NCBI GenBank assembly: GCA_946481615.1
Contig: CAMLOR010000053.1
Location: 1-17,361 of the forward strand
Direction: 5' to 3'
Origin: an uncultured Aquimonas sp.
GTDB lineage: Bacteria; Pseudomonadota; Gammaproteobacteria; Xanthomonadales; Xanthomonadaceae
DNA length: 17,361 nucleotides
Part shown: positions 3,409-16,314 of the stretch, one piece after another
Numbering within the stretch: position 1 is the stretch's first letter
How the letters are laid out: the number at the start of each line of letters is the position of its first letter
The notes under the pieces: generated by a model
The model's database searches: none
Seen by the model: only the letters and a program-made list of their open reading frames with translations
What the model was told of the DNA's origin: nothing
Program-made: the position numbers and the translations under genes

Positions 3409-6683
<3,275 letters not shown>

Positions 6684-6685
6684 GT

Positions 6686-6725
6686 CGATCGCTCGCGCGC
6701 GGCACCGCGCGCGAGTCGGCGATCG
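6686..6725 (+). terminator. Strong stem-loop after katG
   Basis: CTCGCGCGCG (6692-6701) pairs perfectly with CGCGCGCGAG (6706-6715) around the 4-nt loop GCAC. An outer CGATCG/CGATCG helix (6686-6691 with 6720-6725) extends it past a 4-nt bulge. It begins 3 nt after the katG stop. No T-tract follows. Confidence 0.6.
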
Positions 6726-6731
6726 GATGAG

Positions 6732-6761
6732 GCGCGCCGCCGCAGACCGGCGGCGGCGCGC
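6732..6761. terminator. Second GC-rich stem-loop in the katG 3' region
   Basis: GCGCGCCGCCG (6732-6742) pairs perfectly over 11 bp with CGGCGGCGCGC (6751-6761) around an 8-nt loop. It follows the first hairpin by 6 nt. It may back up termination, or be part of the untranslated leader of the next gene. The remaining ~125 bp up to 6887 shows no convincing promoter. Confidence 0.45.
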
Positions 6762-6887
6762 GAAGCCCCGCTTCCTTGCGCCGATCGACGAACGTCGCGC
6801 CCTTCGACGGCGCGGGATGTCCCGGTCCCCGCCGTTTCTCGTTCCTCGCCATCGTCCGGCCCTGGGCCGAATCGATCGGGGATCGCC

Positions 6888-9800
6888 ATGCACCACCGTT
6901 TCCTGCGCGCATCGGCCGCGCTGTTCGCCTGCGCGCTGCCGTTCTGCGCAAACGCCGCCACCTACACCGTCACCAACACCAACGACGCCGGCGCCGGTTC
7001 GCTGCGCGCCGCGCTGCTGAGCGCCAACGGCAACGCAGGACTCGACTTCATCAACTTCAACATCCCCGGCGCGGGGGAGAAAGTCATCAGCCCGCTGACG
7101 TCGCTGCCGGCCGCGAGCGCCACCGCGGCGGTGTACATCAACGGCTTCAGCCAGCCGGGCTTCACCACCGTGCCGCTGATCCGCCTGGACGGCGTCAACC
7201 TGCCGGACAACGCGAGCGGCCTGACGCTGAGCGCTCCCAGCAGCACCATCCGCGGGCTGAAGTTCACGCGCTTCGGCACGGGCGTCCTGATCTACGGCGA
7301 CAACGCGGACATCTATGGCAGCTGGTTCGGCACCGACGGCACCGTGGCGCTCGGCAACAACGCCGGCATCCGCCTGCTCGCCGACGCCGCCGCCATCGGC
7401 GGCACGCTCGCCACCTCGCGCTGCGTGTTCTCCGGCAACGGCACCGGCATCTATCTGGACCCGGGCTTCAGCGGCACGACGATCGTCAACTCGTACTTCG
7501 GCCTCAATCCCGCCGGCACGGCGGCGATACCGAACGAGAACACCGGCATCCGCAGCTTCGCCGACGACGTGATCATCGGCGGCACGCTCGCCACGCAGCG
7601 CAACGTGATCTCCGGCAACGGCTACGGCATCGGGATCGAGGCCGGCACGCTCGCGACCGTCTACAACAACTACATCGGCACCAACGCCGCCGGCACGGCC
7701 GCGGTGCCGAACGGCGTCGGCATCGGCGTGTCGGGCGGCAGCGACCACAATATCGGCGGCTCCGTCGCGGGCACCGGCAACCTGATCTCGGGCAACACCG
7801 GCACCGGCATCTACGTGGGCGGCAATGCCTCCCTCGTGCGCATCCGCGGCAATCGCGTCGGCACCGACGCGGCGGGCAACGCGGCGCTGCCCAACGGCTA
7901 TGGCATGGATGTCCACGGCTCGGACATCGACATCGGCGGCAACGGCGTGGGCAATCACGTCGCGGGCAACCTGGAAACCGGCATCTCCGTGGCAGCGAGC
8001 GCCTCGCTGGTGCGCGTGCTGGGCAACCGCGTGGGCATCAACGCGGCCGGCAACGCCGTGCTTCCCAACGATCAGGGCATCGTGGCCTACGGCACCAGCG
8101 TGGAGATCGGCGGTTCGGTGCCGGGCACCGGCAACGTGATTTCCGGCAACGTCGACACCGGCGTCTACGTGGGCGGCACCGCTTCGCTGGTGCGGGTGCG
8201 CGGCAACCGCATCGGCACCAACGAGGCCGGCACCGCCGCGCTGTCCAACGGCCAGTACGGCGTGCAGGTGCACGGCACCGACGTCGACGTGGGCGGGTCG
8301 CAGGGTGCGTTGAACGTGATTTCCGGCAACGGGCGCGACGGCATCGGCGTGGGCGCCTCCGCCGGGCACGTCTTCATCTTCAACAATCGCATCGGCACCA
8401 ATCTCGCCGGCACCGCCGCCATCCCGAACGTGGAGGAAGGCATCTCGGTGGGCGGCACCGACATCCACATCGGGCCGCTCATGAACCTGATCTCCGGCAA
8501 CGGCGGCAACGGCATTTCGGTGCACTCCGTCGACGGCGTCGAGATCACCAACAACCGCATCGGCACCGATCTTGCCGGCATGGCCGCGTTGCCGAACGGC
8601 GGCTACGGCATCCGCGTGCTGGCGGGCAGCGGCGTGCAGATCGGCCTGCCCAACGCCGGCAATCTGGTGTCGGGCAATGCGCGCAGCCTGTCGCTGGAGA
8701 ACGGTGGCAACATCGTGCAGGGCAACACCATCGGCCTCAACGCGGACGAAACCGCGGCGCTGGGCAACGGCGAAGGCATCGATCTTTCCAGCAGCGACAA
8801 CCTGTTCGGCGGCACCGGCGCCGGCGAAGGCAATGTCGTGGCCGGCAACGACGGCGGCGTGAGCGTGAGCGCCGGCGGCATGCACAACGTCATCCAGGGC
8901 AATTTCCTCGGCAGCAATCGCCTCGGCACCTTCGTGCCCGGCAACGGCTATTCCTCGATGCAGATTTACGAGGGCTTCGACACGCTCGTCGGCGGCACGC
9001 AGCCGGGTGCGGGCAACGTGATCGCCGGCAACTACGCCGCCGGCATCTTCACGCGCGTGGGCAAGCGCAATTCGTTCCTCGGCAACAGCATCCATTCGAA
9101 CGAATTGAGCGGCATCGACAACGAACCCGTCGGACCGAGCCCGAACGATCCGCTCGACACCGACCAGGGTCCGAACGAAAACCAGAACCGTCCCGTGGTG
9201 CGCTCGGCGATCGCATCCAACAACCAGATCGCCATCGTCGGCGAATTGCGTTCCGCGCCCGGGCTCAGCTATCGCGTCGAATTCTTCCACAACGCCGCCT
9301 GCCACGAGAGCGGCCTGGGCGAAGGCCGCACCTTCCTGGGCTTCGCCGAGGTCGCGACGCAGGCCGACGGCACCGGCGCCATCGTCACCTCGCTGGCCAG
9401 CAATCTTTCCAGCGGTTTCGTCACCGCCACGGCGACGGCGCCCGACGGCAACACGTCGGAATTTTCGCCGTGCATCGCGATGGGCGTGCCGGGCAACGGC
9501 AAGTTCACCTTCTGGCGCAACCCGGGCCTTTCGTACGAAGACCATCAGAAGGTCGAGATCTCGGTGGTGCGTTCCGAAGGCCTCGAAGGCACGGTATCGG
9601 TGAGCTTCGCCACCGTGCCCGACAGCGCCACCGCGCCGGCCGACTACACCCACACCGCGCAGGTGCTCACCTTCGGCCCGGGCGAATGGCTGCGCACGGT
9701 GACCGTGCCGCTGAAGCTCGACAACGACGTCGAAGGCGACCAGGAATTCAAGGTGACGCTCGCCAATCCCACCGGCGGCGCCACCGTCGGCACGGCCGAG

Positions 9801-10211
9801 GCCACCTACATCCTCTTCGACCACGAACAGTCCTATCCCTTCCTCCTTGTGAACAACGTCAGCCTCGACGAGCCGGCCAGCGGACAGGCGGTGGCCACCT
9901 TCGACGTGACGCTCACCAGCACCGACCACGCGGTCGTCGTCGACTACGAAACCATGGCCGAAACCGCTACGGCGGGTGCCGATTTCCAGGCCAAGTCGGG
10001 GACGCTCACCTTCCCCGCCAGCGCCACCACGACCACGTTGAAGGTTTCGGTGCCCATCTACGCGGACGACGTCGACGAAACCGACGAGACCTTCCGCCTC
10101 GATGTGCACGGCAACAGCGGCACCTTCATCGCCTCCGAAACGGTGGGCGAGGCCATCATCCGCGACGATTCGGCACCGATCGCCGGGATCTTCGCCGACG
10201 GTTTCGAGTGA
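6888..10211 (+). CDS. Secreted right-handed beta-helix repeat protein with Calx-beta-like domains
   Basis: This is an 1107-residue exported protein. Residues 1-23 form a signal peptide with a likely cleavage after CANAA or nearby. TYTVTNTNDAGAGSLRAALLSAN follows, the usual opening of CSLREA-type beta-helix proteins. Residues ~145-690 hold ten repeats with NRIGTNxAGTAALPNG-type cores alternating with NVISGN-type turns, expected to stack as a parallel beta-helix. Residues ~745-865 are an Ig-like segment (NRPVVRSA...VTATATAPDGNTSEFS). Two Calx-beta-like domains span ~868-980 and ~984-1095, each with an acidic DDVDETDETF-like loop suited to Ca2+. The chain ends IAGIFADGFE. A weak GGGGA lies 5 nt before the ATG. 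Role unknown; a surface or extracellular adhesin, or polysaccharide binding, is plausible. No catalytic residues are recognised. It is flanked by hairpins and is probably monocistronic. Confidence 0.88.
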   Translation: MHHRFLRASAALFACALPFCANAATYTVTNTNDAGAGSLRAALLSANGNAGLDFINFNIPGAGEKVISPLTSLPAASATAAVYINGFSQPGFTTVPLIRLDGVNLPDNASGLTLSAPSSTIRGLKFTRFGTGVLIYGDNADIYGSWFGTDGTVALGNNAGIRLLADAAAIGGTLATSRCVFSGNGTGIYLDPGFSGTTIVNSYFGLNPAGTAAIPNENTGIRSFADDVIIGGTLATQRNVISGNGYGIGIEAGTLATVYNNYIGTNAAGTAAVPNGVGIGVSGGSDHNIGGSVAGTGNLISGNTGTGIYVGGNASLVRIRGNRVGTDAAGNAALPNGYGMDVHGSDIDIGGNGVGNHVAGNLETGISVAASASLVRVLGNRVGINAAGNAVLPNDQGIVAYGTSVEIGGSVPGTGNVISGNVDTGVYVGGTASLVRVRGNRIGTNEAGTAALSNGQYGVQVHGTDVDVGGSQGALNVISGNGRDGIGVGASAGHVFIFNNRIGTNLAGTAAIPNVEEGISVGGTDIHIGPLMNLISGNGGNGISVHSVDGVEITNNRIGTDLAGMAALPNGGYGIRVLAGSGVQIGLPNAGNLVSGNARSLSLENGGNIVQGNTIGLNADETAALGNGEGIDLSSSDNLFGGTGAGEGNVVAGNDGGVSVSAGGMHNVIQGNFLGSNRLGTFVPGNGYSSMQIYEGFDTLVGGTQPGAGNVIAGNYAAGIFTRVGKRNSFLGNSIHSNELSGIDNEPVGPSPNDPLDTDQGPNENQNRPVVRSAIASNNQIAIVGELRSAPGLSYRVEFFHNAACHESGLGEGRTFLGFAEVATQADGTGAIVTSLASNLSSGFVTATATAPDGNTSEFSPCIAMGVPGNGKFTFWRNPGLSYEDHQKVEISVVRSEGLEGTVSVSFATVPDSATAPADYTHTAQVLTFGPGEWLRTVTVPLKLDNDVEGDQEFKVTLANPTGGATVGTAEATYILFDHEQSYPFLLVNNVSLDEPASGQAVATFDVTLTSTDHAVVVDYETMAETATAGADFQAKSGTLTFPASATTTTLKVSVPIYADDVDETDETFRLDVHGNSGTFIASETVGEAIIRDDSAPIAGIFADGFE
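7320..8960 (+). repeat. Ten degenerate intragenic repeats (168-183 nt) of the beta-helix domain
   Basis: Codons for the N-x-IG-T-N/D core recur at about 7320, 7491, 7668, 7851, 8025, 8205, 8385, 8553, 8724 and 8901. The spacing is 171, 177, 183, 174, 180, 180, 168, 171 and 177 nt, always a multiple of three. Each unit encodes 56-61 residues, probably two to three helix coils. The middle copies (7668-8553) are the best conserved and the outer ones have drifted. DNA identity between copies is partial, so this is an old protein repeat and not a recent tandem duplication. Confidence 0.8.
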
Positions 10212-10232
10212 GGCATCGGCATCCCTCGCAGC

Positions 10233-10266
10233 GTGCGCGCCAGCGGTCTCGACCGTGGGCGCGCAC
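10233..10266 (+). terminator. Two-tier stem-loop after the beta-helix gene
   Basis: GTGCGCGCC (10233-10241) pairs perfectly with GGCGCGCAC (10258-10266). Inside it CGGTC (10244-10248) pairs with GACCG (10251-10255), separated by a symmetric 2x2 internal loop. It lies 22 nt after the stop codon and no T-tract follows. The rest of the gap to 10390 holds no gene I can support. Confidence 0.6.
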
Positions 10267-10390
10267 GCGCGCTGCTCCCGCGCGAAGGTAAGCTGCACGC
10301 CACGAGCTGCCCGCAGCGCGGCCCCGCGGTGCCACGGTTTTTGCACCTGCCCGGGAGAGGCTGGCTCACCCTCACAGCGGAGGCAAGACG

Positions 10391-15744: not shown

Positions 15745-16314
15745 ATGACTTCGACGCCGCCACTGCAGCCGGCCATACAGAGCCGGATCCTCGAGCTCCG
15801 CGGACGGCGGGTGATGCTGGACGCGGATCTGGCCAGGCTCTACGGTGTCGAAACCCGTGCGCTGGTCCAGAGCGTGAAGCGGAATGCGGCCCGATTTCCC
15901 GGGGACTTCGTGTTCCAGCTTTCGGTCGCCGAGGCTGCCAACTTGACATCACAATTTGTGATCTCAAGATCGGGGCATGGCGGGCGTCGTACCCTGCCTT
16001 ATGCGTTCACCGAACAAGGCGTGGCCATGCTGTCGTCGGTCCTGGGCAGCCCGCGCGCCATCGCCGTCAACATCGAGATCATGCGGACCTTCGTGCGGAT
16101 CCGCGAACTGGCGGAAACCCACGCGGACCTCGCGGATCGCCTCGGCGATCTGGAGCGCAAGACCGAGGCGCTGGCACGCCAGCACGAAGGATTGAGCCAG
16201 GAAACGCGCTTGCAGTTGAAGGCGGTGCGGGAGGCATTGCGAGCGCTGATTGCGGCGCCCGAGCCTTCCCGCCGCCCGATCGGATTCGTGCCTGCGCAGG
16301 AGAAGAAGCGCTAG
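15745..16314 (+). CDS. ORF6N-domain DNA-binding protein
   Basis: This is a 189-residue protein. Residues ~10-100 are an ORF6N domain: RGRRVMLDADLARLYGVETRALVQSVKRN, then RFPGDFVFQLS, then LPYAFTEQGVAMLSSVLGSPRAIAVNIEIMRTFVRIRE. The rest (about 105-165) is charged and probably coiled coil. It ends in a PSRRPIGF tail typical of chromosomal members. ORF6N comes from phage antirepressor-like proteins and is thought to bind DNA; targets of chromosomal copies are unknown. No other phage genes surround it, so it stands alone. The ribosome site is weak (GAGG, 11 nt from the ATG). An unusual feature is an AT-rich, rare-codon palindrome at 15942-15968 encoding residues L67-R75. It ends convergently with the ABC genes. 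Confidence 0.9.
   Translation: MTSTPPLQPAIQSRILELRGRRVMLDADLARLYGVETRALVQSVKRNAARFPGDFVFQLSVAEAANLTSQFVISRSGHGGRRTLPYAFTEQGVAMLSSVLGSPRAIAVNIEIMRTFVRIRELAETHADLADRLGDLERKTEALARQHEGLSQETRLQLKAVREALRALIAAPEPSRRPIGFVPAQEKKR
15942..15968. repeat. 27-bp near-perfect AT-rich palindrome inside the ORF6N gene
   Basis: Outer arm CTTGA (15942-15946) pairs with TCAAG (15964-15968). Inner arm ATCACAA (15948-15954) pairs with TTGTGAT (15956-15962). Only a C/C pair at 15947/15963 breaks the symmetry, and T15955 is the centre. It encodes residues 67-75 with codons such as TTG, ACA, TCA, CAA, TTT, TCA and AGA, rare elsewhere in this window. Twelve of thirteen pairs matching is far beyond chance for one site. 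Confidence 0.8.

Follow-up and report, generated by a model that had tools for sequence, protein, structure and literature searches.

Co-variation of a conserved palindrome inside ORF6N genes with the predicted recognition helix of the encoded proteins

The ORF6N gene and its internal palindrome

The window analyzed here, i.e., the whole stretch of 17,361 nucleotides from an uncultured Aquimonas sp., carries a gene for a protein of 189 amino acids (15745–16314, + strand) whose N-terminal part (residues 14–99) is an ORF6N domain, matching PF10543 with 110.1 bits as compared to a Pfam curated cut-off of 27.8 (E = 6.7e-32). The protein also matched phrog_4792 in PHROG (E = 2.9e-27), and ORF6N matched PDC-S05 in PADLOC (E = 5.9e-51), a family whose own label is that of a candidate defence system. 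Phage anti-repressors (PHROG 4792; Ant/Rha/KilAC group) are related in sequence to the ORF6N domain; nonetheless the Pfam search returned no KilAC match in the window protein, and in the accessible part of the literature no self-site was found described for the anti-repressors. Helices 26–33 and 37–46 of the AF2 model, in which pLDDT averages 70.8 for the whole protein and about 85 for these two blocks, form a helix-turn-helix (HTH); the second of them, encoded by codons 37–46 (15853–15882, +), is the predicted recognition helix, and the long C-terminal helices (residues 103–146 and 152–169) may serve in dimerisation. The eight chains retrieved by a PDB sequence search up to E = 1 all covered only profile positions 97–164, corresponding to these C-terminal helices, and a fold comparison against the PDB gave no match at E ≤ 0.001. 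Elsewhere in the window, two very long open reading frames overlap on opposite strands (4467–10346, −, 1959 amino acids; 6776–10291, +, 1171 amino acids), the minus-strand one having no Pfam match up to E = 0.001.

The predicted recognition helix lies about 25 codons upstream of a 27-bp palindrome at 15942–15968, CTTGACATCACAATTTGTGATCTCAAG, which encodes residues L67–R75 and which we propose as the binding site of the encoded protein. It is an odd dyad centred at 15955 with 12 of its 13 pairs matched, exactly as reported in the preliminary description, the single mismatch being a C/C at 15947/15963. Comparison of the arms places this mismatch in the left half-site (15942–15954, +), where C occupies position −8 (15947) at which G is common; the right half-site spans 15956–15968 on the minus strand. 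The symmetric consensus, with up to three mismatches, matched a single place in the window, and 200 dinucleotide shuffles gave no match at all; the dyad in the ORF6N gene is real and not a product of chance.

Conservation and pairing of the palindrome

Relatives were gathered by protein search, without use of the palindrome, from 17 viral loci, the best 80 of 572 genome loci and 14 more viral loci. Nearly all of the 100 protein-pattern ORF6N segments from the 17 viral and the best 80 of 572 genome loci carried the palindrome in the same place, the exceptions being L001, L016 and L017, where it was weak or absent. The conserved palindromes are odd, with a centre CAA-N-TTG or a near form of it. 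At a score of at least 8 the site was present in 88 of 90 genome-contig ORF6N genes (89 of 90 at a score of at least 6.5), as compared to 22 of 1095 control stretches of 480 bases, and in 18 of 25 viral ORF6N genes. Genes found with the Pfam profile gave 23/25 in Bacteroidota and 20/27 in Pseudomonadota at a score of at least 8, the latter rising to 25/27 at 6.5 or more. When all sets were pooled, a recognisable site was missing from 12 of 214 unique ORF6N genes. The palindrome is a conserved feature of ORF6N genes, and the dyad present in 88 of 90 of them makes homologues that encode the same residues with GC-rich codons and no dyad, named in the preliminary description as the contrary case, not the rule.

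The rare AT-rich codons first noticed against the GC-rich background of the window gene were indeed found to extend to 17 genes with the site in loci whose GC content is 60% or more, picked by the strict centre pattern and hence leaving out TCT/ACT centres: for seven amino acids, GC3 was 0.40 within 12 bases of the centre and 0.78 in the rest of the domain (110 and 1094 codons, respectively). Near the centre in these genes leucine was encoded by TTG or TTA in 17 of 17 cases, and glutamine by CAA in 16 of 16.

The two arms of the palindrome also change together. In 140 ORF6N genes, gathered partly by palindrome patterns and accompanied by 7 more without the site, positions 4–12 were paired in 88–99% of cases, the column-wise expectation being 48–75% apart from the nearly invariant position 6. 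Compensated arm changes included AGG..ACC, AGA..ATC, AAG..ACT and AAA..ATT, as well as TTG..TCA vs. TTA..TTA, and further TCA..GTG, TCG..GCG, TTC..GGA and TGC..GGC. A second ORF6N subclass (L035, L066, L096) keeps the same DNA core in another frame, where a VTNCDHL-like segment replaces RSQFVTS; the third frame of the core would give TGA, so that both usable reading frames are occupied. The suggestion that selection acts on the nucleic acid itself is borne out by the covarying arms, the two frames and the AT-biased synonymous positions, and by this sequence evidence the palindrome is selected at the DNA level.

A residue-base code

Mutual information computed on 137 genes with the site (4 without it being set aside) singled out residues 42, 39, 43 and 38, besides those encoded by the palindrome. 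The identity of residue 42 follows the base at ±4, glutamine going with A, glutamate with G, lysine or arginine with C and leucine with T, and this held in both halves for all 103 protein-found genes with a site (72 Q-A, 10 E-G, 10 K-C, 9 R-C and 2 L-T). The 12 genes of all sets with the palindrome in the other frame obeyed the same code (8 Q-A, 4 E-G), and therefore the link with residue 42 does not pass through contact with palindrome-encoded residues. In the pooled sets, restricted to genes aligned without a gap at residues 38 and 42, the code held in 191 of the 202 unique site-bearing genes; of the 11 that break its simple form, two combine Arg39 with Gln42 and read GG/TT, possibly a sub-code, recognised post hoc. 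Lys38 was accompanied by G at ±7 in 120 of 120 pooled cases, and Arg38 was looser (34 AA, 23 mixed A/G, 5 GG and 1 TT). The window gene has Arg at codon 38 (15856–15858, +) and A at ±7, the commonest base with Arg, and Gln at codon 42 (15868–15870, +) with A at ±4, as in 118 of 124 Gln genes; by co-variation these two would be its specificity residues.

The specificity residues occupy the second, third and sixth positions of helix 37–46, and it is at the second, third and sixth positions of the recognition helix that HTH proteins contact bases. Gln with A is a classical pairing, and so are Arg or Lys with G and Glu with C, which appear on the sense arm as C and G, respectively. A predicted recognition helix whose residues co-vary with the bases of the site, as expected of an HTH regulator with a cognate palindrome, is hence present in these proteins. 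Since the residues of the helix predict the bases of the palindrome, the ORF6N protein very probably binds the palindrome inside its own gene; the preliminary description had offered such a site as one of three options, and the co-evolution of helix residues and palindrome bases strongly supports it.

Gene sets assembled later behaved in the same way. Among 40 new Bacteroidota genes found with the Pfam profile, all with both residue 42 and the palindrome (L263 was excluded, being the L071 gene of the first set), the code fitted both halves in 33 and one half in 5 (2 R-A/C, 2 L-G/T, 1 Q-A/C), and two had no clean fit (L303, and L311 with a doubtful palindrome); 4 further genes had residue 42 and no palindrome. 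The later Pseudomonadota set comprised 30 genes, 3 of them without a palindrome, and 19 of its 20 new site-bearing genes fitted the code. In the genomes G014, G025 and G026 paralogues differ in specificity, and each matches its own palindrome except the truncated fragment L351. A FastTree tree was computed from 167 rows after removal of helix and site columns; on it the residue class changed 49 times and the base 45 times. Independent pairs across supported branches numbered 12 for Q/A (about 10.4 concordant), 9 for E/G (8.5 concordant), 11 for K38/G7 (9.6 concordant) and 5 for KR/C (4.9 concordant, too few for significance alone), with no discordant pair in any class.

These results bear on two other explanations. 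The first, an mRNA hairpin acting on translation or transcript stability, had been raised in the preliminary description, and its support is limited to the ability of the palindrome to fold (z −3.4 for the window sequence as RNA); an mRNA hairpin should favour G·T over A·C mismatches on the sense strand, whereas the 140 genes showed 22 G·T-type and 33 A·C-type mismatches at ±4 to ±13, and a base code linked to HTH residues is not expected of a bare RNA hairpin. A search of Rfam up to E = 1 found nothing at the palindrome, its one match, to radC, scored below the gathering threshold and fell on the minus strand in another part of the gene. We therefore reject the RNA hairpin, which is very improbable on both the mismatch types and the residue-base code. 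The second explanation, either constraint on nothing but the protein sequence of the LRSQxVTS segment or mere chance, is hardly credible: the segment is kept in close homologues among the matches listed, as the preliminary description had claimed, but the second frame encoding VTNCDHL and the residue-base code already contradict this reading, to which the AT bias at synonymous positions and the excess of sites over control windows are also opposed.

Further copies of the palindrome

Additional sites lay 20–230 bases before the domain start in 21 of 134 ORF6N genes, as compared to 2 of 132 in the first 210 bases past the domain (Fisher p = 3e-5) and 15 of 2953 far control windows. Such a promoter-proximal site, within 20–230 bases upstream, was not recognised for the window gene or for most ORF6N genes. 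Considering 30 upstream sites from all locus kinds, pattern-found loci included, 17 were of the gene's own ±4 type against a permutation mean of 11.2 (p = 0.015; row L006, whose centre is not CAA-N-TTG, was dropped from the permutation). As just 17 of the 30 are of own type, self-repression cannot account for all of them, and we rejected the own-type operator as the sole reading of the upstream copies, 13 of which deviate from the code of their own gene. Sites of foreign specificity occurred in G003, G008, G010, G250 and G349, in each of which one ORF6N gene was found, although these assemblies may be incomplete. One of them is a G-type palindrome just 5' of the start codon of a DedA-like gene, as read from its translation, in the Rhizobacter genome G003 (L134:3334), where the sole ORF6N gene found is of Q type.

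Genome-wide, the core GGTCRCAANTTGYGACC was present in 9 of 299 Pseudomonadota genomes (1 for the reversed-pattern control) and in 12 of 118 Bacteroidota genomes (control 0). ORF6N genes occurred in 41 and 32 of the same sampled genomes, respectively, and accompanied the core in 8 of the 9 Pseudomonadota (Fisher p = 5e-7) and in all 12 Bacteroidota (p = 3e-8); the exception, L115, where the core falls in a long unrelated open reading frame that reads as ribonucleotide reductase-like, was treated as a chance occurrence. In 21 of 26 loci fetched by palindrome patterns, ORF6N was matched either at the palindrome or next to it. Orphan palindromes adjoin toxin-antitoxin-like genes (L125, L146), a DUF1016-like gene (L127), an AbiEi/AbiEii pair (L254) and a dinB/Sir2 plasmid region (L253), and in phages they occur both between genes and inside coding sequence; the labels DUF1016-like, NERD-like and HigB/HigA-like derive from reading the translations and not from family searches. 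At L126:843-3295, three truncated copies of a NERD-like 5' gene fragment alternate with other genes, and one of them holds an orphan palindrome. Weak blastn matches (20/22 or 22/25 bases, E 3–7) were also returned in P1-like phages and E. coli plasmids.

Possible roles of the site

From the site itself, its pairing as DNA, the code and the upstream enrichment, all read from the sequences, we infer physical binding, a dimer and repression. As double-stranded DNA, the palindrome would be the cognate site of the very ORF6N protein in whose coding sequence it lies, and a dimer would set one HTH recognition helix into each half-site, residue 42 (with 39) reading ±4/±5 and residue 38 reading ±7. Occupancy of this site, joined in some genes by that of a second one near the promoter, would then limit transcription by roadblock or looping. 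We consider it fairly probable that the palindrome serves as the protein's own site mainly for autoregulation, which appears the most likely use, as enrichment of further sites upstream but not downstream favours it. Autoregulated HTH repressors of the LacI/GalR type use two or more operators, including one within a gene, and the parallel with ORF6N would lie in dimer binding both close to the promoter and within the coding region; in ORF6N genes, unlike in these, the intragenic site is near-universal, is found in distant phyla and co-evolves with its reader. As a single gene supplies both site and reader, the two move together in horizontal transfer and would switch specificity together. The upstream sites of other specificities make it probable that the ORF6N proteins carried by different elements regulate each other or shut each other out. 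ORF6N thus appears as a protein-DNA pair locked in one gene and co-evolving across phyla, and a code readable from the genes alone would give a DNA target and a mechanism to a family that is common in the genomes sampled.

No functional study of ORF6N genes was found in the literature searched, which lay mostly outside subscription journals, and within the same limits no description of a self-site in these genes was found in work on ORF6N, KilA-N, BstA, PDC-S05 or intragenic autoregulation. In the available text of PMC6591296, ORF6N is mentioned and the word "palindromic" belongs to the CRISPR name; the intragenic HspR site in that of PMC6102357 sits in another gene, speA. The closest parallel is BstA, a KilA-N-like prophage defence protein, with aba, a 63-bp cognate element across the start codon of its gene (PMC8585504). 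As far as the accessible text describes it, BstA/aba resembles ORF6N in that the DNA-binding domain of the protein is KilA-N-like, a DNA element overlaps the gene coding for it, and protein variants and elements are specific for one another; judged by co-variation, ORF6N likewise has a cognate element overlapping the gene, although position and shape differ, aba having direct CCCGCC repeats and ORF6N a palindrome of 25–33 bp about 200 bp inside the gene. For three ORF6N proteins, the PADLOC matches up to E = 1 included no BstA family, presupposing that the library holds a BstA model. To our knowledge, the concept of a cognate self-element within a gene is known only from BstA, and the palindrome would link the candidate defence family PDC-S05 to it.

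The main rival to autoregulation follows from this parallel: an aba-like mark of self-immunity, by which ORF6N would attack foreign replicons and its own palindrome would exempt the DNA bearing it, elements collecting marks of several specificities thereby being exempt from several ORF6N proteins. The match to PDC-S05 and the cognate immunity given, in the accessible text of PMC8585504, by the DNA element at the start of the BstA gene point in this direction. The foreign-specificity sites near genes do so too, as does the phage contig L146, where three palindromes of ±4 types C, G and A lie within about 110 bp (4401–4513) beside a HigB/HigA-like toxin-antitoxin pair, in a stretch without an ORF6N gene. 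Simple self-repression accounts less well for foreign-type sites and this triplet than a self-mark or a network of cross-regulation does. Nonetheless the upstream excess over downstream sites is operator-like, and aba, as far as described in the same source, has its direct repeats at the gene start and no internal palindrome; we regard the self-mark as unlikely. A broader proposal, rather unlikely as well and put forward only tentatively, is that ORF6N constitutes a self/non-self code among mobile elements, with the ±4 and ±7 bases set by residues 42/39 and 38: each gene would carry the mark read by its own protein, specificities would diversify under rivalry, and phages and plasmids collecting marks would become exempt from, or controlled by, several ORF6N proteins.

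A target for recombination or insertion, aiding spread of the genes or shuffling of their halves at the palindrome, was the remaining option of the preliminary description. Where the domain match is broken internally, the ends tend to fall at the site (22 of 40, hand-picked, in profile positions 46–73), tandem extra copies occur in L076, L123, L157, L275 and L299, and orphan copies are dispersed. Some of the clustered ends, however, come from profile matches split by in-frame insertions (L157 and L275 are open throughout), a recombination target does not predict the residue-base code, and in a phage helicase clade the palindrome was gained by substitution at constant aligned length (45 of 81 rows viewed). 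The target is improbable as the main role, and we rejected mobile palindromic insertion as a general rule on the evidence of that clade.

In the phage helicases (L173–L182 and L186) the related palindrome lies at about residues 284–293, and neighbours among the 45 of 81 rows viewed have a decayed one or none. In L123, whose protein is of E type (G), the first tandem copy (1473) is of A type and the second (1509) of G type, as though the gene had gained a site of its own present type next to an older copy.
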